Assembly (NCBI RefSeq): GCF_001577365.1
Contig: NZ_CP014513.1
Span: forward strand, 248,001 to 312,000
From: Frondihabitans sp. PAMC 28766
GTDB taxonomy: Bacteria; Actinomycetota; Actinomycetes; Actinomycetales; Microbacteriaceae
DNA length: 64,000 nucleotides
Direction of reading: 5' to 3'
A program made the position numbers and the translations under genes. The notes beneath the pieces are model-generated. The model was not told the DNA's origin. It was given only the letters and a program-made list of their open reading frames with translations, and did no database searches. Below are positions 7,082 to 19,481 of this stretch, in pieces. Each line of letters starts with the position of its first letter. Positions within the stretch are counted from its first letter, which is position 1.

Positions 7082-10000
7082 CTAATAACGCCGCCGACGC
7101 CGGAAGATCAGGATTCCGAGACCCGCCACGACCAGGGCCGCGGCGACTCCGACGAGCCAGCCCGGGTTCGACCCCGTGAAGGCGAGCACGCCGGAAAGCG
7201 CAGACCCCGACCCGGTTCCGCTCGGCCCGCCGTTCGGGCCGATACCGATCCCGTTGCCGCTGCCATTGCCTCCCGTGGGCGGGTTGCCCGAGCCGGGCGG
7301 CGTGGAGCCGGGCGGGGTGGAGCCGGGCGGCGTGGAGCCGGGCGGCGTCGATCCCGGCGGCAGCAGCGTCACGTCGACGGCCGAGCACGCCGAGGTCGCG
7401 CCGCTCGAGCAGGGGTCGATCACCTCCGTCCTGGCGAACGGCGTGACACCCGACGGCGGATCGATGGTCGCGTGGTTGACGGGGCCGCCCGCCGCGGCGT
7501 ACGTCACCGTGATCGTGACGACGGTCTTGTCACCGGGCGGAAGGGTGTCGATCGGCCAGGTGACCACGCTGTCGGCCAGCGTGCCGCCCTTGTCGGCCGA
7601 CACGAAGGTGGCGCCCGCGGGCAGCTCGTCCGACACCGAGAAGGCGGTCGCCGTCAAACCACCGGTGTTGGCCACCGTGATGTCGTAGGTGACGTCGTGC
7701 CCGACCTGTACGGCACGGGTCTCGGCGGTCTTCTCGAGGCTCAGCTGACCGAACTCGTACGTGTTGGTGATCGTGACCACCTGGCCCGCCGGCACATCAC
7801 CGGCCGTGCCCGAGTGGATCACCTGCGCGGTGCTCGGCGAGATGTCGCGACTCGCCTCCCCGTACGAGCCGACCGGACCGTTCTCGGTCGTGACGCAGGC
7901 GGCACCCAGCGGGATTTCCTCGACCGTCGCCGTGTACGAGTCCGCTTCGTCGAGCGTGACGGCCGAGTTCGCTCCCAGGTCGACGGGCGCCCCGGCGACC
8001 GTGCAGACGACGTTCGCCTGGAAGGACGTCGGCGCCTCGGCGGCGGCCGGGCCGGTCACGTTCTTGGTGATCTGGAGGGGGCCGCCGGCCAGCGTGACGC
8101 CGACCTTCGCCGGGGCGCGAGGCACGACTGCGACGCCGCTCGTCGAGGCCGCCACCGCGCCGAACTGGTTCCAGGCGATGTCGGACGTGACCGGCGCGGT
8201 CACCGGCGCGAGGCTGGCATCCTGCGCCGTCACCGGGCTGTCGACGGTGCGGAAGAGCGCCGTGACGGTGTCGCCCGGCGCCAGCTGCGCGGGCGTCGAG
8301 GTGGTGAAGTCGAGGATCACGCGGATGCCGGTGATCGCCGAGGCGTCGCCCGTGTAGCTGTCGAGGTCGACCCAGGTCGAGCTGGAGCAGGTCGGGTCGC
8401 TCGTCCAGGTCGACGTCGTGCCGGTGCCGACGCAGACGTTCGCCGAGGTCGTCACCTGCTTCGTGATCGTCGTGCCAGCGGGCTGGCCCGTCACGTCGAC
8501 GCCGTTCGCCAGATCGAAGGTCGGCCGGTAGGTCGATCCCCGCGAGGCGCCGGTCGACAGCAGGCGGTCGCCCGTGACGGGCAGCGGGTCGACGAGGGTC
8601 AGCGACTTGTAGGCGACGGTGCCGCTGTTGGCGGTCGCGAGCTTCCATTCGTCGGTGCCGCCGACCACGGTGTTCGCTGCGCACGGCGAGCGGTAGAAGC
8701 CCTGGGCGTCGGTCGTGCAGACCGTCCCGGGGTTCGCCGGGTTGGTGGCGCCCGAGACGATCGGGTCGACGACGTCGCCCTTCACGCCCTTCTGGGCGAA
8801 CAGCGCCGGGCCGGGCTGCGGTGACACGTAGTTGGTCGTGCCGCAGTCGGTGTCGGCGACGCCGGCGACCGTGCCCTGGCCGTTGCCCGAGGTGTTCGTG
8901 CAGGCGGCGAGGGTCTGGTCGGTCTGCACGACCATCTGGTTGGTGGCGCGCTGCCCGCTCAACAGACCCGGCTGCAGGATCAGCCCGAGGGTCACCGTGA
9001 ACGTCTCACCGGGCTGCAGAGTCTGGGCGCCCGTCGGCCAGCTGAACGTCAGGGCGTTGCTGCCCGAGTCGAAGGCCGTCGTGACCGAGGTCGGCGACAG
9101 GGTGCCGCCGGCCGAGTCGGTGTACGTCGGCGTGACGCCGTCCCATTGCAGTGAGGTCGGCAGGGTGTCGACCAGGTCGCGGATCGTCAAGAGCCCCGTG
9201 CCCGAGTTCGTGAACGTCAGGGTCCATGGGATCGAGTCGCCCGCCGAAACCGTGTGCACGTCGCCCTGCGGGTCTTTCGCCACGTCGAGCGCGAAGATGC
9301 CCGGGTCGAGCAGGATACTCGCGCTGGCGTCGTTCGTGACGTCGGGGTAGAGGTCGGAGTCGGTGTAGCGGTGCGACGCCGTCTGGATCGTGTCGTCGAC
9401 CGTGCTGGGGTACGGCACGGCGTTCGTCGTGCCGCGCAGGTCGGTGAGCACGCTGACGTGCAGCACGGCCTGGGCCGACCACGGCGCGGGCACGGCACTG
9501 TTCGAGAGCAGGCCATGATCGGCGCGGTCGAAGACGAATCGGATGCCGGTGACGGTCGACAGGGTCACCGAGGGCAGCACCGCCGTCGGGCCGAAGGTGC
9601 CCTGCTGCCACGTCGTCGAGCCATTGACCTGCACGTCGACCCGCACCTCGTCGGATCCTGCCGGCAGCGTCACGTCGGAGGGTGCCAGCGAGGTCAGCCG
9701 GAAGGAGCCCCAGAAGGCGGTGTCGGTGTCGGTGATCGTGACCTGGCTCGTCGGCACGGAGGCCAGCGGCCCCTGGCTCGCGCCGAGCGTGACGGCGACG
9801 GGGGTTCCCGCGGCCTTGGCCTGCAGGATCGACGTCGGCGAGAACGACTTCGACGCGGTCACGTCGAGCCGACCCTGGGTCAGTGCGACCGGGGCGTCGT
9901 CGGAGTCGCTCGGCGTGCTCTGCGCGCCCGACGGGTACAGCACCGGGTCGTACGACTGGGCGAAGGTGTGGTTGTCGACCGAGAACGGCGTGACGAAGGT

Positions 10001-13000
10001 GCTCGAGTCGCTGCGGAGCGTGGCGCGCACCTGGGTGTGCAGCACCAGCGTCGCGGGCGACTGGGTGATGGTGCCACCCGTCGTGCCCGGGTCGGTGCCC
10101 TGGTAGAGCACGCTCACACCGACGACGTCGGTCAGCGCCGAGGCCTGCAGCGCGTCGGCGTCGGTGACGCTGAGCTGCGTCGTCGTCAGGGTGCCGTCGT
10201 CGGCCCGGTGCCAGAGCGTCACGGTCGAGGCCGCCGGGTCGATCCGGGCGGGGGTGAGGCCCGAGAAGTCGAGGCCGGTGATCGTGAAGCGCTCGAACGG
10301 GTTCGTCGAGGCGTTGTAGGCGGCTCCGTCGTAGGGGTTGTCGTTCCAGCCCGAGGCGGGCGTGAGACAGGATGCCGTCGACTGCGGGTCGCAGGTCATC
10401 GGGTCGGTCACGCGCAGGTACGACGCGTTGCTCGCCGACTGGTTCTGTGCTGTCACCGTGAAGTCGTTGGTCGGGTAGCCGGATGCCGGCACGTCGCCCG
10501 GCTGAGGCACGACGATCGTCGACTTCTGGCTGGTCTTCGTGACGCCGACGAGCGGCGGCCGGTCGATCAAGCCGATGTTGTCGCTGGCGAGGCGCGGGCC
10601 GACGGCCGTGCCGTTCTCCACGCCTGCGACGCCGTCGGTGTTGATGATCGTCGATGGGTCGGGGTCGTTGTAGCCCTGGGTCGCCGTGACCCACGGGCTC
10701 GTGCCGATCTGGTCGCGCACGGTGTTGCGCAGCTGCCAGACGAGGCCGAAGTAGCGCGGGCTGTTCGCACCCGAGGTCGCGATGCCCGAGCCCACCGGAG
10801 GGGTCAGCGGGTCGGTGCTCGACGCGCGCGCGGCGTCGTTCGGCGTGACCGTGATGCGCACGCCGGTCGTGGCGGCCGACTGTGCGCCGCTCAGCGTGTA
10901 TCCCGTGAAGCCGGTGCCCGACATCCAGGATCCCGACGGGGCGGCGACGGTCGTCCACGCACCGTCCTCGTAGAGCTGGATCGTCGACACCCGATCCCAC
11001 TTCAGCAGCGGGTCGGCACTGAAGGTCACCGGGGCGATCTTCATCAGGTCGAAGGCCTGGAAGACGGTCTGCGACGGGTCGCCCTCGTTCGCGGCCGAGT
11101 CGGTCACGGTCAGCGACGAGTAGCCGGTGCTGCTGACGCCCCAGCCGAGCTTCGTACCGGCCTGCTCGCCCGACTGCGAGTCGAGGGTCGTGACATCCTG
11201 CGTGAACGAGGTGTTCGTCCAGTTCTTGGACGCGAGCAGGCTGCCGGCGCCGGTGAACGACTGGATCGCCGCGTTCGCGTCGGCCCGCACGGTGCGGCTC
11301 GTGATCGGCTGCCCACCGGCGACCTGACCGGCCCCCTGCGCCACGCCTTCGTTCTGGTAGCTGGTGGCCGGGTCGTTCGCGATCGACGTGGGCCCGGTGC
11401 CGTCGCGCAGATCGGAGCGCGCCTGGTAGACGGTGTTCGGGCTCACGCTGAGACCCTGCGCAAAGCCCGCGGGGTTCGAGAAGGTGTAGCGGAGGCCGGT
11501 GATAGAGCCGACGAGGCCCGCAGGGATGTCACCGCGGTAGACCTGCGTCGCGGTCGTGGCGTCGGACGTGGCGAGGGTCTGCCAGGTCGTGCCGTCGGTG
11601 GTGTACTCGATGAGCAGCGTCGACCCCTGCGGCACCTGGGTCGGTGCGATCGCGGTGGGGTCGAAGGCGTTCCAGAAGTCGTTCGCCCCGCCGCGGGCCT
11701 GGTCGGTCACGACGATGGTCGTCGGGCGGACGAACGACGAGCCTGACGCCGTCGTCGTGGGCAGCTGCGCGACGACCGTGCCGCCGGGCGCCACCGCCGA
11801 CTGCGGCGAGATGCTCTTGGCGATGCCGAGCGAGATCGTCGGGTAGAAGACCGCGAGCGGCGCCGTCGCCGTCGCGGTGGCTGGGCCGGCCGGGCTCTGG
11901 CCGGTGACGTTCACGGTGTTGGTCGTGTTGACCGAGCCCTGGGCCTGGGTGACCAGGTCCACGCTCGGCGCGATCAGGTATTTGGCGGTCGCCGTCGCAT
12001 TGACCGCGATCGAGCCGGTGTAGTCGAGCGAGAAGCCCGAGATGTAGGTGCCGGCGGGCGGCGTGGGGGTGCTCGGGGTCGTGTTGCTGGCGAAGGCGAC
12101 TGTGGAGGTGCTGCCGTCGCTGAAGTGCCAGGTCACCGAGGCGCCGGTCGCACCGGTCGGGTACGCGATCGGGGCGCTGAAGCCGCCGAACGCTATCTGG
12201 GCGGTGAAGTAGCTGGTGTCGGCCACGCTCAAGCTGGTGAGCGGCCCGTTCGACGTGTTGGTGGCGCCGATCGTCGCCGTGGCGGTGGTGCCGGCGGGGA
12301 TCTGCGCGGGGGCGATCGACTTCGACGCCTTCACACCGGTCTTGAGGGCGGTGATGGCGTAAGGCGCGCTGGCCGTGACGGTCGCAGGATCATGGCCGGC
12401 CACGGTCACGGTGCCCGTCGCCTGGTTCGTGACGGTCGCACCCGACACCTGGCTGGCGGTCGTCTGCCGGTTGGTTGCTCGCTGGGCGACGGTGATCGGC
12501 ACGCTTGCGGCCGCGCCGGCCGGGGTGATCGCGGCGCCGGTCGCCCCGGCGAACGTGAAGCGGAGGCCCGCGACGGCCGATGCGTCGACTCCGGTCGGCA
12601 GAGCGATGGCGTTCGGCGCGTTCGGCTGACCCGGCACCCACTGGTAGGTGCCGCCCTGGAGCACGTAGGCGTCGACCTGGACGGTGGTCGCGCCGTCGGG
12701 CAGGGTGACCGGGCCGAAGCCGGTGAAGTCGACCAGCGCGAACGGGTTGTCGGCACCGAGAGCGGTCTGGCCCGCGGTGGCGGACGTCGGATCCTGCACC
12801 GCCAGCGAATCGGCGGGCACGTTCGACGTGTTGCGCGGGCTCAGCGTGATGGTCGATGCCGTGCCGGGGGCGAACTGCTGCGACGCCGGCGCCCAGGTCT
12901 TGCCGAGCCCGGCAGACACACTCACCGGGATGTTCACGGTGACGTTCGCGGAGTCCCGGGCGCTGCTCGCCGTGGTCGAGGTGGCACTGGCCGTGTTGGT

Positions 13001-13510
13001 GACGGCGACGCCGTTCGAGGCCCAGGTGGCCGGCAGGTTGTCGGGCACCTTGAGGGTGATGGAGGTCGTGTAGGTGTCGCCGGCCGAGATGCCCACCCCG
13101 CCGCCGTCGAGCGCCTCCTTGAAGGCGACGCTGAGCGTGCAGCCGGCGGTGACGGTGGTGGTGCAGCCGGCGTAGGTCGGTGTGCTCGGGCGGTTGGTCG
13201 GCGAGACCGACGTCGACAGGATCGTGAAGCCGGCGAACTGGGCCGGCAACGTGTCGATCATGACCGAGTTCGCGCAGTCGTTGTCGTCGCAGCCGACGGC
13301 GATCTGGTAAGTGAACTCGTCACCGGGGGCAAGGGCCGCGCTGTTCTGTTGGTCGACCGTCTTGTTGACCGTGAGGGCCCCCTGGTCGGCTGCGAACGCC
13401 GGCACCGCGAGAGCCGTCCCGCTCACGACCACGGCCACGACTGCCCCGGCCAGCACGGCCAGCAGACCGCGGCGACGGTTGTCTCGTTTTCTCGGAGACA
13501 GAAAGCTCAT
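7082..13510 (-). CDS. giant cell-wall-anchored surface protein (DUF11/DUF5979-type repeats, LAxTG sorting signal)
   Basis: This 2142-residue secreted protein has a signal peptide ending near AVPAFA-AD (residue 41). Many beta-sandwich repeats follow in which T/P/D-rich strands recur, with phrases such as LxxTKT, SVTDTDTAFWGSF and TVTLG. Near residues 1800-1910 is a DUF5979-like unit (ITKNVTGPAA... ending in VTITNTYE). A classic DUF11 unit follows (DVTYDITVANTGG... LPAGATF). A PPGST repeat and then LAFTG, a hydrophobic helix and RRRRRY end the chain. LAxTG is the class E sortase motif of high-GC Gram-positives. The role is probably surface adhesion or structure. No sortase gene is in the window. 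No strong ribosome binding site precedes the ATG. Confidence 0.8.
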   Translation of the reverse strand: MSFLSPRKRDNRRRGLLAVLAGAVVAVVVSGTALAVPAFAADQGALTVNKTVDQQNSAALAPGDEFTYQIAVGCDDNDCANSVMIDTLPAQFAGFTILSTSVSPTNRPSTPTYAGCTTTVTAGCTLSVAFKEALDGGGVGISAGDTYTTSITLKVPDNLPATWASNGVAVTNTASATSTTASSARDSANVTVNIPVSVSAGLGKTWAPASQQFAPGTASTITLSPRNTSNVPADSLAVQDPTSATAGQTALGADNPFALVDFTGFGPVTLPDGATTVQVDAYVLQGGTYQWVPGQPNAPNAIALPTGVDASAVAGLRFTFAGATGAAITPAGAAASVPITVAQRATNRQTTASQVSGATVTNQATGTVTVAGHDPATVTASAPYAITALKTGVKASKSIAPAQIPAGTTATATIGATNTSNGPLTSLSVADTSYFTAQIAFGGFSAPIAYPTGATGASVTWHFSDGSTSTVAFASNTTPSTPTPPAGTYISGFSLDYTGSIAVNATATAKYLIAPSVDLVTQAQGSVNTTNTVNVTGQSPAGPATATATAPLAVFYPTISLGIAKSISPQSAVAPGGTVVAQLPTTTASGSSFVRPTTIVVTDQARGGANDFWNAFDPTAIAPTQVPQGSTLLIEYTTDGTTWQTLATSDATTATQVYRGDIPAGLVGSITGLRYTFSNPAGFAQGLSVSPNTVYQARSDLRDGTGPTSIANDPATSYQNEGVAQGAGQVAGGQPITSRTVRADANAAIQSFTGAGSLLASKNWTNTSFTQDVTTLDSQSGEQAGTKLGWGVSSTGYSSLTVTDSAANEGDPSQTVFQAFDLMKIAPVTFSADPLLKWDRVSTIQLYEDGAWTTVAAPSGSWMSGTGFTGYTLSGAQSAATTGVRITVTPNDAARASSTDPLTPPVGSGIATSGANSPRYFGLVWQLRNTVRDQIGTSPWVTATQGYNDPDPSTIINTDGVAGVENGTAVGPRLASDNIGLIDRPPLVGVTKTSQKSTIVVPQPGDVPASGYPTNDFTVTAQNQSASNASYLRVTDPMTCDPQSTASCLTPASGWNDNPYDGAAYNASTNPFERFTITGLDFSGLTPARIDPAASTVTLWHRADDGTLTTTQLSVTDADALQASALTDVVGVSVLYQGTDPGTTGGTITQSPATLVLHTQVRATLRSDSSTFVTPFSVDNHTFAQSYDPVLYPSGAQSTPSDSDDAPVALTQGRLDVTASKSFSPTSILQAKAAGTPVAVTLGASQGPLASVPTSQVTITDTDTAFWGSFRLTSLAPSDVTLPAGSDEVRVDVQVNGSTTWQQGTFGPTAVLPSVTLSTVTGIRFVFDRADHGLLSNSAVPAPWSAQAVLHVSVLTDLRGTTNAVPYPSTVDDTIQTASHRYTDSDLYPDVTNDASASILLDPGIFALDVAKDPQGDVHTVSAGDSIPWTLTFTNSGTGLLTIRDLVDTLPTSLQWDGVTPTYTDSAGGTLSPTSVTTAFDSGSNALTFSWPTGAQTLQPGETFTVTLGLILQPGLLSGQRATNQMVVQTDQTLAACTNTSGNGQGTVAGVADTDCGTTNYVSPQPGPALFAQKGVKGDVVDPIVSGATNPANPGTVCTTDAQGFYRSPCAANTVVGGTDEWKLATANSGTVAYKSLTLVDPLPVTGDRLLSTGASRGSTYRPTFDLANGVDVTGQPAGTTITKQVTTSANVCVGTGTTSTWTSDPTCSSSTWVDLDSYTGDASAITGIRVILDFTTSTPAQLAPGDTVTALFRTVDSPVTAQDASLAPVTAPVTSDIAWNQFGAVAASTSGVAVVPRAPAKVGVTLAGGPLQITKNVTGPAAAEAPTSFQANVVCTVAGAPVDLGANSAVTLDEADSYTATVEEIPLGAACVTTENGPVGSYGEASRDISPSTAQVIHSGTAGDVPAGQVVTITNTYEFGQLSLEKTAETRAVQVGHDVTYDITVANTGGLTATAFSVSDELPAGATFVSADKGGTLADSVVTWPIDTLPPGDKTVVTITVTYAAAGGPVNHATIDPPSGVTPFARTEVIDPCSSGATSACSAVDVTLLPPGSTPPGSTPPGSTPPGSTPPGSGNPPTGGNGSGNGIGIGPNGGPSGTGSGSALSGVLAFTGSNPGWLVGVAAALVVAGLGILIFRRRRRY
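7290..7360. repeat. 15-bp tandem repeat encoding PPGST in the surface protein stalk
   Basis: Four near-identical 15-nt units beginning GAGCCGGGCGG lie head to tail at 7290-7349, followed by a partial fifth. On the coding strand they give PPGST repeats just before the LAFTG sorting signal, where a wall-spanning flexible linker is expected. Copy number is likely variable between strains. Confidence 0.8.
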
Positions 13511-13635: not shown

Positions 13636-13941
13636 CTAGAAGTCGACGGTCTCGAAGGTCTCGCGCCCGCGCGACTCCAGCAGGTCGGCGACGACCTCCT
13701 GGCCGAAGTGCCGGAAGGCGTCGCCCTTCACGTGCGCGTCGAAGGCGGCCTCGTCGTCGTAGACCTCGAAGATATGGAAGACAAGGGGCGCCGCGCGATC
13801 CCGGTACGCCTGGTAGACGCGATTGCCCGCCTCGGCCTCGGCCGCCTTCACGATCTGCCCGAGGGCCGCCTCGACGGCCTCTTCACTGCCGGGCTTGCTT
13901 ATCCAGGTGGCGTTCACGACGTATCCCATGTCTCCATTCAA
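13636..13941 (-). CDS. antibiotic biosynthesis monooxygenase (ABM) fold protein, putative quinol monooxygenase
   Basis: This small 101-residue protein has the ferredoxin-like ABM/dimeric alpha-beta barrel pattern. It opens with a strand (MGYVVNATWISKPG), then a helix (EEAVEAALGQIVKAAEAEAGNRVYQAY), a strand (APLVFHIFEVYDDEAAFDAH) and the terminal FETVDF. Relatives act on quinols or as stress-related dimers, but the substrate here is unknown. The first ATG is at 13941; MGYVVN four codons later is an equally plausible start. It borders the low-GC island. Confidence 0.7.
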   Translation of the reverse strand: MNGDMGYVVNATWISKPGSEEAVEAALGQIVKAAEAEAGNRVYQAYRDRAAPLVFHIFEVYDDEAAFDAHVKGDAFRHFGQEVVADLLESRGRETFETVDF

Positions 13942-14691
13942 TTACCCGTGGCCGGCACCGCCCTTTGGCCGTCGCAGAATTCTGACTGTCAGCGACTGAC
14001 GTGACCCTCAGACCGTCTTGCCGGCCGACGAATTTCGGAGGAGTTCTTGCTGTTACGGGTCGCCTTGTCGGTTCTTCCCGATGTCGATCGAGCCCTCACG
14101 GACACACGGATATCCAGCCCGACGACCGCTTTGGTGATGTTCTTCCCGGGGGTGGAAGTTGAAACCGGCAACCTTCCGACTGTGCGCAGACAGGCAACTC
14201 ACGCAATTCAGAGCTAGGCCGCCGTCTTCAAGGACGCGAATAGGGTTTCGATCCAGACCATGCCTGGCCGCGCGGACGCCGACTTTGATCATCATCGCGC
14301 GCGGGCGACCGGCCCGCTGGGCTGATCCGCATTCTTACTAGGCCCCGATGCGCGGTCCGTCGAAACGGTGTTCGACGAAGTGGTCATCAACGAGACGGCG
14401 ACAGTGACGCTGCCCCAGCCGTTGAAATCGCCTCTCCGCCCATTCATCCGGAGACACAGCCGCCCCTGCAGAAAATCCAACCGGTGACGGGCACAATCAT
14501 TCACTTTCGGTTAGACATATTACACGCGGCATTTGTCTTTTCTCTCGTTTGATTCTACGCTCGGGGTGAGCCCGCAATGAGGCACCTGGCCCTGCCGCGG
14601 ACCGCGGTTTCGGTCTGAACGGGGTCCGCTTACTCATAGATCTACGGGAGCAAATTCTGGTGCGTCCATCGGAGGGAAGGAGGTGACATTC
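13942..14691. other. 750-nt lower-GC region with no confident gene
   Basis: This stretch has visibly lower GC and poorer codon bias than its flanks. A plus-strand open stretch from 14005 to a TAG near 14214 reads like coding sequence (it includes VALSVLPDVDRALTDTRI), but it lacks a start codon and was not recognised. It may be a gene remnant, possibly of a mobile element. A 7-bp inverted repeat GCGGACC/GGTCCGC (14597-14603, 14623-14629) precedes the lasso precursor and might regulate it. The region marks the left border of a probable horizontally acquired segment. Confidence 0.4.
14677..14686 (+). promoter_or_regulatory. near-perfect Shine-Dalgarno of the lasso precursor gene
   Basis: AAGGAGGTGA, almost fully complementary to the 16S 3' end, lies 5 nt before ATG 14692. 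It fixes the start of the 35-codon gene and predicts strong translation. Confidence 0.8.
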
Positions 14692-14799
14692 ATGGCTGAA
14701 TACGAGACACCGACCATCATGCAAATCGGCAAGTTCAACGAGCTGACCACCTGGTACGGCTGGGCAAGCAATGACGGCGAAGGCGAAGCGATCATCTGA
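14692..14799 (+). CDS. lasso peptide precursor
   Basis: This 35-residue precursor was found by eye. The leader contains YETPTIMQIGKFNELT, which matches the actinobacterial lasso leader rule Y-x2-P-x-[LI]-x3-G-x-F with Thr at position -2. That is the site read by the RRE protein (B1) and required by the B2 protease. The inferred core is WYGWASNDGEGEAII, with Trp1 as ring nucleophile and Asp8 as ring acid. Trp1 is rare but known from fusilassin. The core is unusually acidic and has two Trp and one Tyr, possible acceptors for the neighbouring aromatic prenyltransferase. No intact lasso cyclase, RRE or protease gene is next to it, so maturation would need proteins from elsewhere. The core boundary is an inference. 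Confidence 0.85.
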   Translation: MAEYETPTIMQIGKFNELTTWYGWASNDGEGEAII

Positions 14800-14826
14800 T
14801 CGGTTTCCTCTAGCGACAGGGCATTT

Positions 14827-15033
14827 ATGACTTCTTCATGGTTTATTGCGATTGCTGCTGAAGCGGCGAATGGGGACGCGTTCCTTCCGGAGCGGCATCG
14901 GGCCGCTGATGTCATTCGTTTCGAGTCGGGCAGCCCCTGGTTGCTGAGCAGTGCCGCAGCTGAAGATCTCGTGCACGCCGAGGACGGCCCCAGGCGGCTG
15001 GTGGTCATGGGTGAGTTCTCCATTGACTCCCGT
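14827..15033 (+). pseudogene. N-terminal fragment of a lasso cyclase (asparagine-synthetase-like)
   Basis: It begins at ATG 14827, 27 nt after the precursor. It encodes about 65 residues resembling the start of actinobacterial lasso cyclases, including VIRFESGSPWLLSS (family pattern IRHxSGRPWL) and PRRLVVMGEF. A full cyclase is about 600 residues, so the ATP-pyrophosphatase domain and most of the glutaminase-like domain are missing. After about 15020 the family-like sequence stops and prenyltransferase-like sequence appears in another frame. The open frame runs on to 15243 without meaning. It looks like the left side of an internal deletion in a lasso cluster. Family assignment is from pattern recognition on a short stretch. 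Confidence 0.55.
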
Positions 15034-15773
15034 CGCAAGGGGCCAAGAAGGTTGCGGGCCTGTTCGCACCAAGAAAAGACGGGTTTCAGTTCGGGCTCTG
15101 TTTGGGCGCCGCCGTGGATGCACGGGGCGCAGTCAAGGTCAAGGCCTACTTCGACGGATTCAGCGACGGGCTGGCTGGAAATCTCGAGCTGGTCAAGTCC
15201 TTCGCTGGCCAACTCGGCTATGCAGCCAGTTCGGACTGGATAGACGATCACGTTCGCAATCTTCGAGCTCCGATCCTGTCCTTAGATGCGACGGCGGAGA
15301 CCGAGGCTCGCGTCAAGATCTACACGATCTTTACAGATAGGAGCATCGCGGATTTGGAGAGGCAGTGCGAATCCCTGCCCGGATACGCGGCTGGAGACGC
15401 CACCCGTCTGCTTCAGGGAACTACTAGCAAGTGGGATGTGGTCTTGGACGCGCCTGGAACGCGTCCGCTGATGTGCTGGAGCTTCACGAGTCGCAACCAG
15501 AGTGCCCCTAGTGATCTGACGCTCTACTTACCCTTCAACAGGTACCAGCCGAGCGCATCAGGGGCCGTCCGGAGCCTTGCTGCGATTGGAGCGCCCGCGG
15601 CTCTAATCAATGTCTGTCGTCTTGCCGTGAGTCGAGGAGGAACAGACGCGGACACCAATCCGTTTCATTGGCTGGCGCTCAAGTTCGGTTCGGCGAGGGG
15701 CTCAATGACGCTTTACGTGGCGGCCTCGCAGCTTGACAGGATCGTGAGAACCGCGCCGAGGCCGGGCCCGTGA
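15027..15773 (+). pseudogene. DMATS-type aromatic prenyltransferase, 5'-truncated or frameshifted
   Basis: In the third frame, after a TGA at 15024, an open frame of about 248 codons reads as an ABBA-fold indole/aromatic prenyltransferase. Typical beta-strand words are VKVKAYFDGF, EARVKIYTIFTD, SDLTLYLPFNRYQ and GSMTLYVAAS. Families of this type are about 300-400 residues and move dimethylallyl or longer groups onto Trp, Tyr or other aromatics. No ATG is present; a TTG at 15102 is the first possible start inside the open frame. Alternatively, a one-base deletion near 15042 (GGGGCC) would join it to the upstream frame as RRKGP|KKVAGLF, giving a protein of about 315 residues. Its stop overlaps the ctaA-like start by 4 nt, so the two are translationally coupled. 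Confidence 0.55.
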
Positions 15774-16675
15774 CCACGCCGCTGGGATGGCTGGCATCAC
15801 GATTGACGGTCGGACGCCGCACCCTCCGGATCGCGTCGCTCAGCTCACTCGTCGTTGCGATTCTGATCGTGGTCGGGGGCGGCATCGTTCGGGTCACAGG
15901 GTCGGGGCTCGGCTGTCCCGACTGGCCGGAGTGCACCGATGGGTCGTTGGGGCCCACATCGGCGATGGGCTGGCACGCCGCCGTCGAATTCGCCAATCGC
16001 CTTCTGACCGGCCTGCTCTGTGTCGCCGTTGCTGCCGTGATCCTGGCGGCACGGTTCCAGGCCGAGCCTGCTCCGACTGTGACTCGATGGGCCTGGGCTC
16101 AGTTTTGGATCGTCGTGCTGAACGCCGTTGTCGGCGGGGTCACCGTGCTGGCCCGACTGAGCCCTTACATGGTCGCCGCGCATTTTCTGGCGGCCATGCT
16201 CCTACTCACCGCCGCGACCGTTTCCTGGGACAGAGCCAGGCGATTGCCGAATAAAGAACGCGTCCCTGTTTCGCTGCACGTGAGGCGCCTCGGTTCGGCT
16301 CTCCTCCTCGCCACGGGAGCACTCGTCATCCTCGGGACGGCCGTCACCGGAGCAGGGCCGCACGCCGGCGACAATTCGCATGTCGCCCGAATGCCCTTCC
16401 CGTGGATTGCAGCGGCGCTCGTTCACGCAGGTGTTGCTGCCCTGGCGTTTGCGATGGGAATCGCCCTGTGGCGAGCCGCAACGCGGGTGAGGTCTGCGAC
16501 AGTCGTTCTCACACTGCGGGCCTACTTCGCCGTGTTCCTCGCTCAGGGCCTCGTCGGCATCGTGCAGTCCTTGATCGGCCTTCCCGAAGCTCTCGTCGCC
16601 GTTCACCTGATGGGTGCGTCACTTGTATGGGTGGGCGCGGTTCGCGTGGCACTCGCGACCCGCGCCGTCGGCTGA
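15770..16675 (+). CDS. ctaA: heme A synthase (CtaA/Cox15 family)
   Basis: This 301-residue integral membrane protein has about eight hydrophobic helices. It converts heme O to heme A by hydroxylating the C8 methyl group. Family marks include GSGLGCPDWPECTDGS (the first-loop Cys pair), VAAHFLAAMLL and LVAVHLMGASLVW (heme-ligand His), and EFANRLL in the place where Bacillus enzymes have a His. GTG 15770 overlaps the prenyltransferase stop (GTGA). That coupling, and its place in a low-GC RiPP remnant rather than beside ctaB, make it odd. It could be the normal gene that received an insertion upstream, or a second copy acting in tailoring or self-protection. Both are inferences. Confidence 0.85.
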   Translation: MTTPLGWLASRLTVGRRTLRIASLSSLVVAILIVVGGGIVRVTGSGLGCPDWPECTDGSLGPTSAMGWHAAVEFANRLLTGLLCVAVAAVILAARFQAEPAPTVTRWAWAQFWIVVLNAVVGGVTVLARLSPYMVAAHFLAAMLLLTAATVSWDRARRLPNKERVPVSLHVRRLGSALLLATGALVILGTAVTGAGPHAGDNSHVARMPFPWIAAALVHAGVAALAFAMGIALWRAATRVRSATVVLTLRAYFAVFLAQGLVGIVQSLIGLPEALVAVHLMGASLVWVGAVRVALATRAVG

Positions 16676-16701: not shown

Positions 16702-17340
16702 CTAGTCGTTCTCGACCTCGAAGTCCCAGGCGGCCACGATCTTCGCGGCCTTGGCCGCCGCGGGGCTCGCCGAGTCGGCGGGTGCCCAGCGCAGCAGGCC
16801 CTCGCCGACCTTCATGCTCGTGCGCAGCTCGAACGTCGCCTTCTGCCCGGGGCCGACCGACGTCGGCAACGCCGGCGTGTGCGGCACCGCCGCCAGGTGG
16901 TAGACGAATCCGGCCTGGTCGAACGTCGTGAACTCCGACAGCCGGATCGGCACCGCGCGCGTCGCGTGCGACAGAGTCAGAGTCCACGTGCAGGTCGTGT
17001 AGTCCGCCTGGTAGGGCAGCCCCTCGCCGGGCACCACGGGGCCGGTCACGCTCATCACGACCGAGCCCCCGCCCGGCAGCTTGACCTTGACGCTGTCGCC
17101 TTCCGAGGTGAGCGCCGGCTTCTTCACACTGCCGGTGAGCATCGCGTCCGTGTCGAGCGACGACTTCGGCAGGTAGGAGGGCATGCCGCCGTAGGTGCTC
17201 TCTGCGTGCGGCTGAGCCTGGGTGCACCCGCTGAGCGCCAGCGGAACTGTCAGCGCGAGGGCACCGACGACGGCCCAGAGGCCGGCTCGAGAAGCGAGCC
17301 GGCCCTGGGATCCTGCGGTCGTGCGTGTGAAGAACGTCAC
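16702..17340 (-). CDS. lipoprotein of unknown function
   Basis: This 212-residue protein has a type II signal peptide ending in the lipobox LALSGC (about residues 25-30), so it should be lipidated and held on the outer membrane face. The rest is beta-rich, with one further Cys in YTTCTWTLTL, and was not matched to a known family. The start is GTG 17340, which overlaps the stop of the upstream phosphoesterase gene by 4 nt (GTGA), so the two are translationally coupled and probably work together at the surface. Confidence 0.7.
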   Translation of the reverse strand: MTFFTRTTAGSQGRLASRAGLWAVVGALALTVPLALSGCTQAQPHAESTYGGMPSYLPKSSLDTDAMLTGSVKKPALTSEGDSVKVKLPGGGSVVMSVTGPVVPGEGLPYQADYTTCTWTLTLSHATRAVPIRLSEFTTFDQAGFVYHLAAVPHTPALPTSVGPGQKATFELRTSMKVGEGLLRWAPADSASPAAAKAAKIVAAWDFEVEND

Positions 17341-19481
17341 CAGTGCTTGTTCCCCGTGTTGTTGAAGACGTCGGGGCCGAAGGGCGCGAGGCCCTTCTGA
17401 GACGCGAAGCCGAGGTGGCCGAGGCCGTCGACACCACCCGAAACCGTCGAGCCGGGAAGCGGCTTGACGTCGCGGCCCTTGTCGACCTGGAAGATGTCCT
17501 CCATGGTGCGCAGCCAGCTGTAGTGGTTGTAGTACGTCGTCGAGACCGTGCCGGGCTTGATCAGCGGGCTGATCAGCACGCTGCCGGTGTCGCCGCCGCC
17601 GGGGGTGGCGTCGGTGGCGTCGTACAGCGGGTCGGCCGTCTGGCCGGCGGTGAGGTAGCCGGGGGCTCCCTCGGCGCTCAACGTGATCTTCGAGACGCTG
17701 CCGGTCGGGGTGACCGGGTTGCCCGAGGCGTCGACGAGCTGGAACGAGCCGTTGACGACCGGGCTGGCGTTCGTCGCCGCTGGGTTCGGGCCGGTGTCGC
17801 TGACGGTTCCGACGAAGGTGTTCGCCGGGATGGGGCTCGTGCCGCCGGGGCCGGTGGTGTCGGCGGTGTCGGTCACCATGCGGCCGGTGTCGTCGGCCAG
17901 GATCGAGTCGTCGAGCACGAAGCTCGTCGCGGTCGAGGCCAGGGCGGTGTCGTTGCGAGCGCCGGGCGTGGTGCCCGAGCCGCCCTCGACGATGCCCGGC
18001 ACGCAGTTGGCGGGCACGTTCGGCGAGGTCGACGTGCAGGCCGGCGGCCGGTCGATGAACGAGTTGTTGCCGGGGCCCGGGTAGAGCTGGTCGCCCTTCG
18101 AGTCGGTGCCGAGCGTCGAGTTCGGGCCGGTCGGCTCGATGGCGACGTTCTTGCCGTAGAGGTTCTCGCCGGCGGCGTCGCTGACGAGGCCCGTGGCGGC
18201 GTCGGGCTGGTCGGCCTGGGTCGGGCCGTAGGCGTTGGCGTTGTTGAAGCCGCCGCCGTAGGTGAAGGGCGGGTTGGCCTCGTCGAACGTGACGTCGATC
18301 AGGCCACCGTCTTTGAACGCGGCCGACTTCTCGATCATCGGGATGTAGTACTTGAGGAACAGGTCGGAGGCGTAGAGGCCGCCGGTGTAGTTGACCGGGG
18401 TGGTCGACTCGGGCGCAGGGGTGCCGTTCTGGTAGACGGGCTGGCCCGACTTGGTGAAGGAGCCCGAGAGGTTGTTGCCCTTGCAGACCGCGTCGTGGGC
18501 GTCCGAGCAGTTGTTCGGCGTGATCCAGCTGAACGCCGGGGTGGTCGACTCGTGCTGCAGGTCTTTGTAGAGGCCGTTCTTCGACGAGTCGAGGTTGGCG
18601 ATGTGGTTGGCGTCGCAGTCGGTGCCGCCCTGGGCGGGCTTCGTCAGCGCCGGTGTGGCCGTGCCGTTGGCGTCGACCGCACCGGTGATACTGGCGAACC
18701 ACGGGAAGGGGAAGTGCTTCGCGACGTACTGGTCGTTGGTCTGCGCGCCGGTGAAGCTGGTCACGCCGGTCGGCAGCGGGTGGGCTGCGGTCGCGCTGAG
18801 GTACGTCGGGTTGGTGGTCGGGTTGTTCGCTGCGCTCCCGGGGGCACCGCAGACGCCGTCTTCGCGGCCGGTCTGGTCGCCGAGATCCTGCGCGTAGCCC
18901 TTCCAGGTCTTGCCGGCCGCGTCGAGCTGGTTGAAGAGGGTGGGGCTGTCGGTCGGGTAGGTGCAGCCGTTGAGGCCGTTGGCCGCGTTCGCCTTGCTCG
19001 GCTGCGAGGCGTTGGCGAGCGAGGCGACCTGGCCCTGGTTCACACCGTGGGTGACGATGCTCTTGTTGCTGCCGAAGTTGGTGTTGGCGACCGAGCAGTC
19101 CTCTTGGGTGTCCTCCTGGGGCGCCTGCCCCGAGACCATCGACATGTAGTTGTCCATCGACGAGTGGCCGGTGCCGAAGTAGTTCTTGAGCAGCACGCCC
19201 TGGCTCGGCAGCGTCTTCCAGAGGTAGCTGTTCTGGTTGAGCCCGGTGAAGGTGGCGTCGTACGACTTGTTCTCGAGGATGATCAGCCACACGTGCTTGA
19301 TCTGACCGGCTTTGAGCCCGGTGGTCGTGATCGTCGTGCCCTGCTGAGAGCCGCCGTGGTCAGGAGACGCGGTCGCCTGCGCGGCCGTCCCCGCCCCGAT
19401 CGCGGCTGCGGCGAGGATCCCCGTCGCTGCGGCGAGCGCGATGCCGCGCCGCCGTGCCTTCTTCGTACCCATGATTCGCAT
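17337..19481 (-). CDS. secreted phosphoesterase (phospholipase C / acid phosphatase-like, PF04185 family)
   Basis: This 714-residue exported protein has a signal peptide (RRRGIALAAATGILAAAAIGAG... cleaved near ATASP). The mature part opens with IKHVWLIILENKSYDATF, the metal-binding E-N-[KR]-S/F start of the phosphoesterase family. YFGTGHSSMDNYMSMVSGQAP follows, then DVTFDEANPPF near the middle, another metal-site segment. Relatives cleave phosphodiester or phosphomonoester bonds outside the cell and help scavenge phosphate. Substrate is undetermined. Start: ATG 19481, with MGTKK three codons later as alternative. Its stop is coupled to a lipoprotein gene. Confidence 0.75.
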   Translation of the reverse strand: MRIMGTKKARRRGIALAAATGILAAAAIGAGTAAQATASPDHGGSQQGTTITTTGLKAGQIKHVWLIILENKSYDATFTGLNQNSYLWKTLPSQGVLLKNYFGTGHSSMDNYMSMVSGQAPQEDTQEDCSVANTNFGSNKSIVTHGVNQGQVASLANASQPSKANAANGLNGCTYPTDSPTLFNQLDAAGKTWKGYAQDLGDQTGREDGVCGAPGSAANNPTTNPTYLSATAAHPLPTGVTSFTGAQTNDQYVAKHFPFPWFASITGAVDANGTATPALTKPAQGGTDCDANHIANLDSSKNGLYKDLQHESTTPAFSWITPNNCSDAHDAVCKGNNLSGSFTKSGQPVYQNGTPAPESTTPVNYTGGLYASDLFLKYYIPMIEKSAAFKDGGLIDVTFDEANPPFTYGGGFNNANAYGPTQADQPDAATGLVSDAAGENLYGKNVAIEPTGPNSTLGTDSKGDQLYPGPGNNSFIDRPPACTSTSPNVPANCVPGIVEGGSGTTPGARNDTALASTATSFVLDDSILADDTGRMVTDTADTTGPGGTSPIPANTFVGTVSDTGPNPAATNASPVVNGSFQLVDASGNPVTPTGSVSKITLSAEGAPGYLTAGQTADPLYDATDATPGGGDTGSVLISPLIKPGTVSTTYYNHYSWLRTMEDIFQVDKGRDVKPLPGSTVSGGVDGLGHLGFASQKGLAPFGPDVFNNTGNKHW

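Follow-up and report, generated by a model that had tools for sequence, protein, structure and literature searches.

Does a short gene beside a prenyltransferase-like reading frame in Frondihabitans sp. PAMC 28766 specify a prenylated lasso peptide, and would the strain be able to make it? An initial annotation of the window, the whole stretch of 64,000 nucleotides analyzed here, had proposed an orphan lasso precursor next to a DMATS-type prenyltransferase as a new tailoring combination. We conclude with high confidence that positions 14692-16675 are a deletion-broken copy of a WYGWA-core prenylated-lasso-peptide cluster, which was probably acquired horizontally. The features of the locus are collected in Table 1.

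Table 1. Features of the broken lasso cluster and its flank, in window coordinates
Feature	Position	Strand	Basis
ABM-type monooxygenase	13636-13941	-	beside the cluster
Shine-Dalgarno sequence of the precursor, AAGGAGGTGA	14677-14686	+	read directly
Lasso-peptide precursor, 35 aa, intact	14692-14799	+	NCBIfam NF033521 at cut-off; 66-69% identity to four Streptomyces precursors
Predicted core WYGWASNDGEGEAII, W1-D8 ring expected	14752-14796	+	position after Thr at -2; W1 and D8 invariant in 5/5 precursors
5' remnant of lasso cyclase gene, about 70 codons	14827-15033	+	tblastn and alignment; same place behind the precursor as in relatives
Putative deletion junction	15031-15042	+	homology switches frame from cyclase to DMATS
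3' remnant of DMATS-type prenyltransferase gene	15042-15773	+	PF11991; alignment to cluster DMATS
Cluster-type haem A synthase (CtaA/COX15) homologue, 301 aa, intact ORF	15770-16675	+	PF02628; clade with four cluster CtaAs

The precursor gene belongs to the WYGWA family

The 35-codon reading frame noted earlier is present behind a strong Shine-Dalgarno sequence. The leader residues that had been read as lasso-like (Y4, P7, I9, G13, F15 and threonine at -2) are all in place, and translation confirmed the core sequence. The precursor thus carries the lasso leader Y-x-x-P, G and Thr(-2) as well as an acidic residue at core position 7-9, where lasso cores as a rule have Asp or Glu. It scored exactly at the 19-bit cut-off of NCBIfam lasso_leader_L3 (NF033521). 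A DNA pattern combining leader and core had a single match in the window and none in 100 shuffles. Because four Streptomyces homologues aligned with the precursor at E values of 3e-13 to 9e-14 in a search of eight loci, its identity is beyond chance. This homology makes it a member of the WYGWA family. The alignment of the five precursors has 22 invariant columns including core residues W1, Y2, G3, W4, A5, S6 and D8, and the core consensus in the four Streptomyces precursors is WYGWAS[NA]DGEG-x-AII. The cleavage site and the W1-D8 ring are predictions from this pattern.

Complete clusters in Streptomyces

A pattern scan of a species-genome collection returned 15 stretches, four of which are lasso precursors, all in Streptomyces. 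The other 11 were dismissed as chance matches by their translation. All four precursors lie inside complete lasso clusters, those of S. iakyrus, S. katrae, S. phaeofaciens and Streptomyces sp. yr375, so that a search for related intact clusters with cyclase, RRE, protease and prenyltransferase was successful four times, each time in Streptomyces. Two of the four, the only complete clusters found, are close kin (CtaA 88% identical). The gene order on one strand is the same in 4/4: precursor, cyclase, B1 (RRE), B2 protease, PhyH-type dioxygenase and DMATS. With start codons chosen by us, the products are 624-645 aa (cyclase), 83-98 aa (B1), 145-153 aa (B2), 299-310 aa (PhyH-type) and 375-377 aa (DMATS).

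The domain assignments come from the S. iakyrus genes, and homologues of every gene were found in the other three clusters by tblastn. The S. iakyrus genes exceeded the Pfam cut-offs for Asn_synthase, PqqD, Transglut_core3, PhyH, Trp_DMAT and COX15-CtaA, and the NCBIfam cut-offs for lasso_PqqD_Strm, lasso_biosyn_B2 and the lasso leader. Its cyclase (best model macrolact_Ik_Al, 218.7 of 300 bits) and its DMATS (43.6 of 163.85 bits) stayed below the NCBIfam cut-offs. A homologue of the window's DMATS sequence lies near the precursor in all four Streptomyces genomes (E 1e-26 to 1.5e-32). The four complete clusters thus support the pairing of a lasso precursor with a DMATS-type prenyltransferase.

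DMATS enzymes are tryptophan prenyltransferases, and enzymes of the PhyH type carry out oxidations with iron and 2-oxoglutarate. Following the general logic of lasso biosynthesis, the RRE protein of the complete copies would bind the precursor, the B2 protease would cut the leader and the cyclase would join Trp1 to Asp8. Oxidation of the core, perhaps at Tyr2, would fall to the PhyH-type Fe/2-oxoglutarate enzyme, and tryptophan would receive dimethylallyl groups from the DMATS enzyme.

Remnants of the cyclase and prenyltransferase genes

The prenyltransferase-like sequence behind the precursor does match PF11991 (Trp_DMAT; E 5e-7, 29.8 bits, cut-off 25), but the gene is partial and a cyclase start, overlooked earlier, stands between it and the precursor. 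The PF11991 match covers only profile positions 156-339 of 357, and TIGR03429 (DMATS) gave 27 bits, far under the model's 163.85. The similarity to DMATS sets in about 245 nt downstream of the precursor and lacks its own start. It aligns with the relatives' DMATS from about residue 120-130 to the end, leaving the last ~240 codons of a gene whose first ~120-130 codons, present in 4/4 relatives, are missing. A whole DMATS-type gene is thus absent from the locus. The remnant is 36% identical to the S. phaeofaciens cluster DMATS over 238 aligned positions (E 1e-39); the solved structures nearest to it by sequence are aromatic prenyltransferase 4yl7 (E 4e-8) and CymD (E 7e-4).

The cyclase remnant matched the cyclase start of 4/4 Streptomyces clusters in tblastn searches, and its shortness and the modest E values (3e-6 to 2e-3) count somewhat against a broken cluster. 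It also matched, at E 2e-4, the cyclase start in a comparison lasso region (L022), where the cyclase gene is flanked by an annotated lasso leader gene on one side and by genes annotated as lasso B1/B2 on the other. The two remnants in the window are read in different frames. Alignments place 3700, 3727, 3706 and 3712 nt between the corresponding cyclase and DMATS points in the 4/4 relatives. One deletion of about 3.7 kb would have removed most of the cyclase gene, the first part of DMATS and, between them, the genes for the RRE, the protease and the oxygenase, while the precursor and the linked CtaA paralogue stayed open. A complete cyclase of the Asn_synthase type, present in 4/4 relatives, is absent from the locus, and the RRE (B1) gene is absent too, there being no room for it between the remnants. 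No PhyH-type oxygenase was found among the ORFs tested in 14692-16675, although 4/4 relatives have a homologue. The four contigs of the genome gave no B2 protease match to PF13471 at E 0.001 or to NF033537 at E 0.1; the same NF033537 search recovered B2 in 4/4 Streptomyces. The description of the precursor as an orphan holds in that the cyclase is cut short and B1 and B2 are missing, but the gene came to be so by loss from a once complete cluster. No product is expected in this strain because the genome has no B2 match and DMATS lacks its first third.

The residues invariant among the relatives are kept in the window at 55/101 positions in the DMATS remnant, 16/30 in the cyclase remnant and 131/173 in CtaA, shares that faster evolution would also give, as the genes differ in rate among the relatives. 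The counts fit continued use of CtaA alongside drift in the two remnants.

These counts bear on two other readings. The first is a working minimal system, in which other loci of the genome supply the maturation enzymes and the shortened DMATS then modifies the peptide. In its favor, the precursor with its strong Shine-Dalgarno sequence and a DMATS-like ORF (219 or 223 aa, depending on the start) are both open. We nevertheless regard it as very improbable: no B2 protease was matched in the genome, which led us to discard a working orphan system, about 120-130 N-terminal residues that 4/4 relatives possess are missing from the DMATS, and the remnant keeps a smaller invariant share than CtaA. The second is a misassembly at the junction, with a complete cluster in the strain. 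The read type is unspecified and the precursor is well conserved, more so than would be expected of a long-dead cluster. A misassembly is therefore conceivable, but it is improbable, since no B2 gene lies on any of the four contigs and both remnants keep a smaller invariant share than CtaA, as if neither were needed. A deletion-broken cluster accounts best for the locus.

A CtaA paralogue linked to the cluster

An intact CtaA gene, also overlooked in the initial annotation, directly follows the DMATS remnant and overlaps its stop by 4 nt. The product scored 83.6 bits against PF02628 (cut-off 29.9) and has the conserved Glu, His and Cys. It keeps 55/62 residues that are invariant in 14 other CtaAs, including E73, C49/C55, H69, H138, H198, H219 and H279. 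Only an alphaproteobacterial model matched among the NCBIfam haem A synthase models, at 25.5 of 550 bits and so far under its cut-off.

The window's genome has a second CtaA elsewhere, and six other genomes of the genus have CtaA in one place each. The housekeeping CtaA of genome G285 matches in two pieces (L050 and L051; G285:C1:2637080-2637894), perhaps through a frameshift or a sequencing error; neither the tree nor the invariant count includes it. The tree, built from 15 CtaAs (five cluster, four Streptomyces housekeeping and six window-genus copies), placed the five cluster copies on one side of a branch with support of 97/97. The window copy sits on a long branch (0.9) that was flagged by the tree program, and such joins can be false; pairwise identity agrees with the tree, being 52-55% to the cluster copies, 47-49% to Streptomyces housekeeping CtaAs and 34% to the housekeeping copy of its own genome.

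A CtaA homologue is present in 4/4 complete clusters. In S. iakyrus, S. katrae and yr375 it precedes the precursor and shares its strand, and in S. phaeofaciens behind DMATS on the opposite strand. In the S. katrae copy (reversed locus L030, 9540-10589) the two halves are separated by a long Gly/Asp-rich insertion, which is only partly present in other cluster copies. When predicted ORFs of the four loci (19-20 kb regions) were compared by all-against-all tblastn at E 1e-8, CtaA was the only ORF common to all, apart from the biosynthetic genes and from shadow ORFs lying opposite DMATS, within a set from a GC3-based picker that missed some B2 and DMATS genes and may let small or unusual shared genes escape. 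One further ORF matched in two of the four loci at 31%, and no transporter common to the four was found among the ORFs compared.

Eight comparison lasso regions (L022, L059-L065) gave no homologue of CtaA, PhyH or DMATS at E 1e-4, with the limit that CtaA could be missed in L059, which has no cyclase match in 18 kb, in L060, which ends at a contig end behind the cyclase, and in L022, which ends with its record behind B2. A second CtaA gene thus belongs to the WYGWA-type cluster family, a link that is new as far as our literature search reached: no report connecting CtaA with lasso clusters was found, and papers attributed to Harris et al. 2024 and Shi et al. 2025 may hold one. A paper on cervimycin mentions both a lasso peptide and heme A synthase, but in unrelated passages.

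Distribution and origin of the locus

With all five precursors as query, 6/392 Streptomyces genomes matched at 1e-4. One of the six has a WYGWA-type core, its precursor being identical to that of Streptomyces sp. yr375, and five have other lasso-like cores. The same query matched only the window's own genome among 394 genomes of its class at 1e-6; the window precursor alone did so among 299 genomes of the family, and PF11991 among 396 genomes of the order. The DMATS remnant found one protein in a large protein set, the window's own, and two genomes among 396 of the phylum, its own and a Streptomyces genome, G699. On the evidence of these searches the WYGWA-core cluster type looks rare.

The two G699 loci (3.4 kb each) were rejected as relatives, as neither the precursor nor the cyclase start matched them below E 0.1. 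Plasmid matches to the DMATS remnant were two and weak, in Streptomyces and Calothrix (E 3e-4 and 4e-3). The Streptomyces one was set aside: its neighbors are tryptophanase and polyketide genes, and none of the genes annotated in 20 kb is a lasso gene. The precursor found three Rhizobium plasmid records at E 7, and the cyclase start 12 plasmid records (best E 0.1), one of which, at E 3, is a Streptomyces plasmid lasso cluster.

GC3 is 0.75 in the precursor, 0.65 in the cyclase remnant, 0.68 in the DMATS remnant and 0.75 in CtaA, against 0.90-0.95 in three neighbors. This low GC3, together with the distribution of the family, suggests that the cluster was acquired horizontally, perhaps from a lower-GC donor; drift after the loss is another reading of the composition. 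The ABM gene was found at 1e-10 in 1/7 genomes of the genus, the window's own. An empty site in the genus is thus not locatable by this gene, and the ABM flank may belong to the acquired stretch too.

About 0.7 kb of lower-GC DNA (13950-14680), which could hold the cluster promoter or older debris, precedes the precursor. None of five ORFs in 13989-14724 hit a Pfam family. A promoter scan found none, and the three terminator-like sites are no more than in shuffles (mean 2.4). Farther out on the minus strand, 7082-13510 encodes a repeat-rich protein of 2142 aa with DUF11 domains and a C-terminal LAFTG plus membrane anchor, which we take to be a sortase-type signal, and 17337-19481 encodes a phosphoesterase-family (PF04185) protein.

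Possible role of the CtaA paralogue

Since CtaA is the only shared gene without an obvious biosynthetic place, immunity by a spare target is the role we favor. We tentatively propose that the paralogue is the immunity gene of the cluster, a suggestion that is plausible but short of probable and draws on its linkage and its own clade. It would act as a less sensitive spare haem A synthase, protecting against a peptide that hits haem A synthesis or the aa3 oxidase. An immunity role could explain why CtaA outlived the biosynthetic genes. Against it, the cluster CtaAs keep the residues common to housekeeping CtaA, and no residue appears to mark resistance.

The alternative that CtaA is a tailoring enzyme oxidizing the peptide seems unlikely to us. 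CtaA is an oxygen-using membrane enzyme, it is linked to the precursor in 4/4 complete clusters and the window, and the window copy looks catalytic because of the invariant residues it keeps. However, a homologue of PhyH-type oxygenases is already encoded in every complete cluster (domain tested on one), no result ties CtaA to peptide substrates, and the S. phaeofaciens copy runs opposite to the operon. With a PhyH gene in each complete cluster, CtaA is also less needed for installing a tyrosine change.

Under the immunity proposal, the presence of CtaA in each of the four complete clusters suggests where the peptide may act. It is a speculative possibility that WYGWA-type peptides act on haem A synthase or the making of aa3 oxidase and that their clusters carry a dedicated resistant CtaA. 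We know of no other lasso peptide with haem A synthesis as its target. If this is true, the WYGWA family gains a target, and an actinobacterium of another order than Streptomyces has lost the weapon and kept the shield. The window may then record production lost and immunity retained, and the CtaA link is a possible lead to the target of known prenylated lasso peptides.

Comparison with known lasso systems

The claim of a new tailoring combination did not survive, as lasso prenylation has already been reported. Trp prenylation figures among the genome-mined lasso modifications listed in a 2026 review, which describes lasso prenylation as confirmed to occur after threading (PMC13352647), and a second paper refers to lasso prenylation reported in connection with collinodin in 2025 (PMC12715784). 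The candidate of the initial annotation is thereby settled: prenylated lasso peptides are known already, and the window copy, being broken, is a decayed copy of this known kind of cluster.

Wygwalassin, reportedly described by Harris and colleagues in 2024, is said to be a Trp-prenylated lasso peptide with dimethylallyl-Trp and didehydro-Tyr, modifications that would fit the DMATS and PhyH genes of the complete clusters. Like the window family, the wygwalassin type reportedly has a lasso leader, a DMATS gene in the cluster and a Trp-rich core that, to judge by the name, begins WYGWA. The window copy differs in lacking most of the cyclase, the RRE, the protease, the oxygenase and the first third of DMATS, and in its host, which belongs to another order than Streptomyces. 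Collinodin, by the title of a 2025 paper said to be by Shi and colleagues, carries oxidative and prenyl modifications, as the WYGWA family would; its listing in lasso papers leads us to regard it as a lasso peptide.

The core, acidic and with Trp1, had been called unusual, but fusilassin/fuscanodin is a lasso peptide with Trp at position 1, so this residue is not unusual by itself. The window core shares Trp1 with fusilassin/fuscanodin, for which no prenyltransferase is known to us. Housekeeping CtaA/Cox15 shares PF02628 and the conserved residues with the window CtaA; unlike it, the cluster copies form their own clade and stand beside lasso genes.
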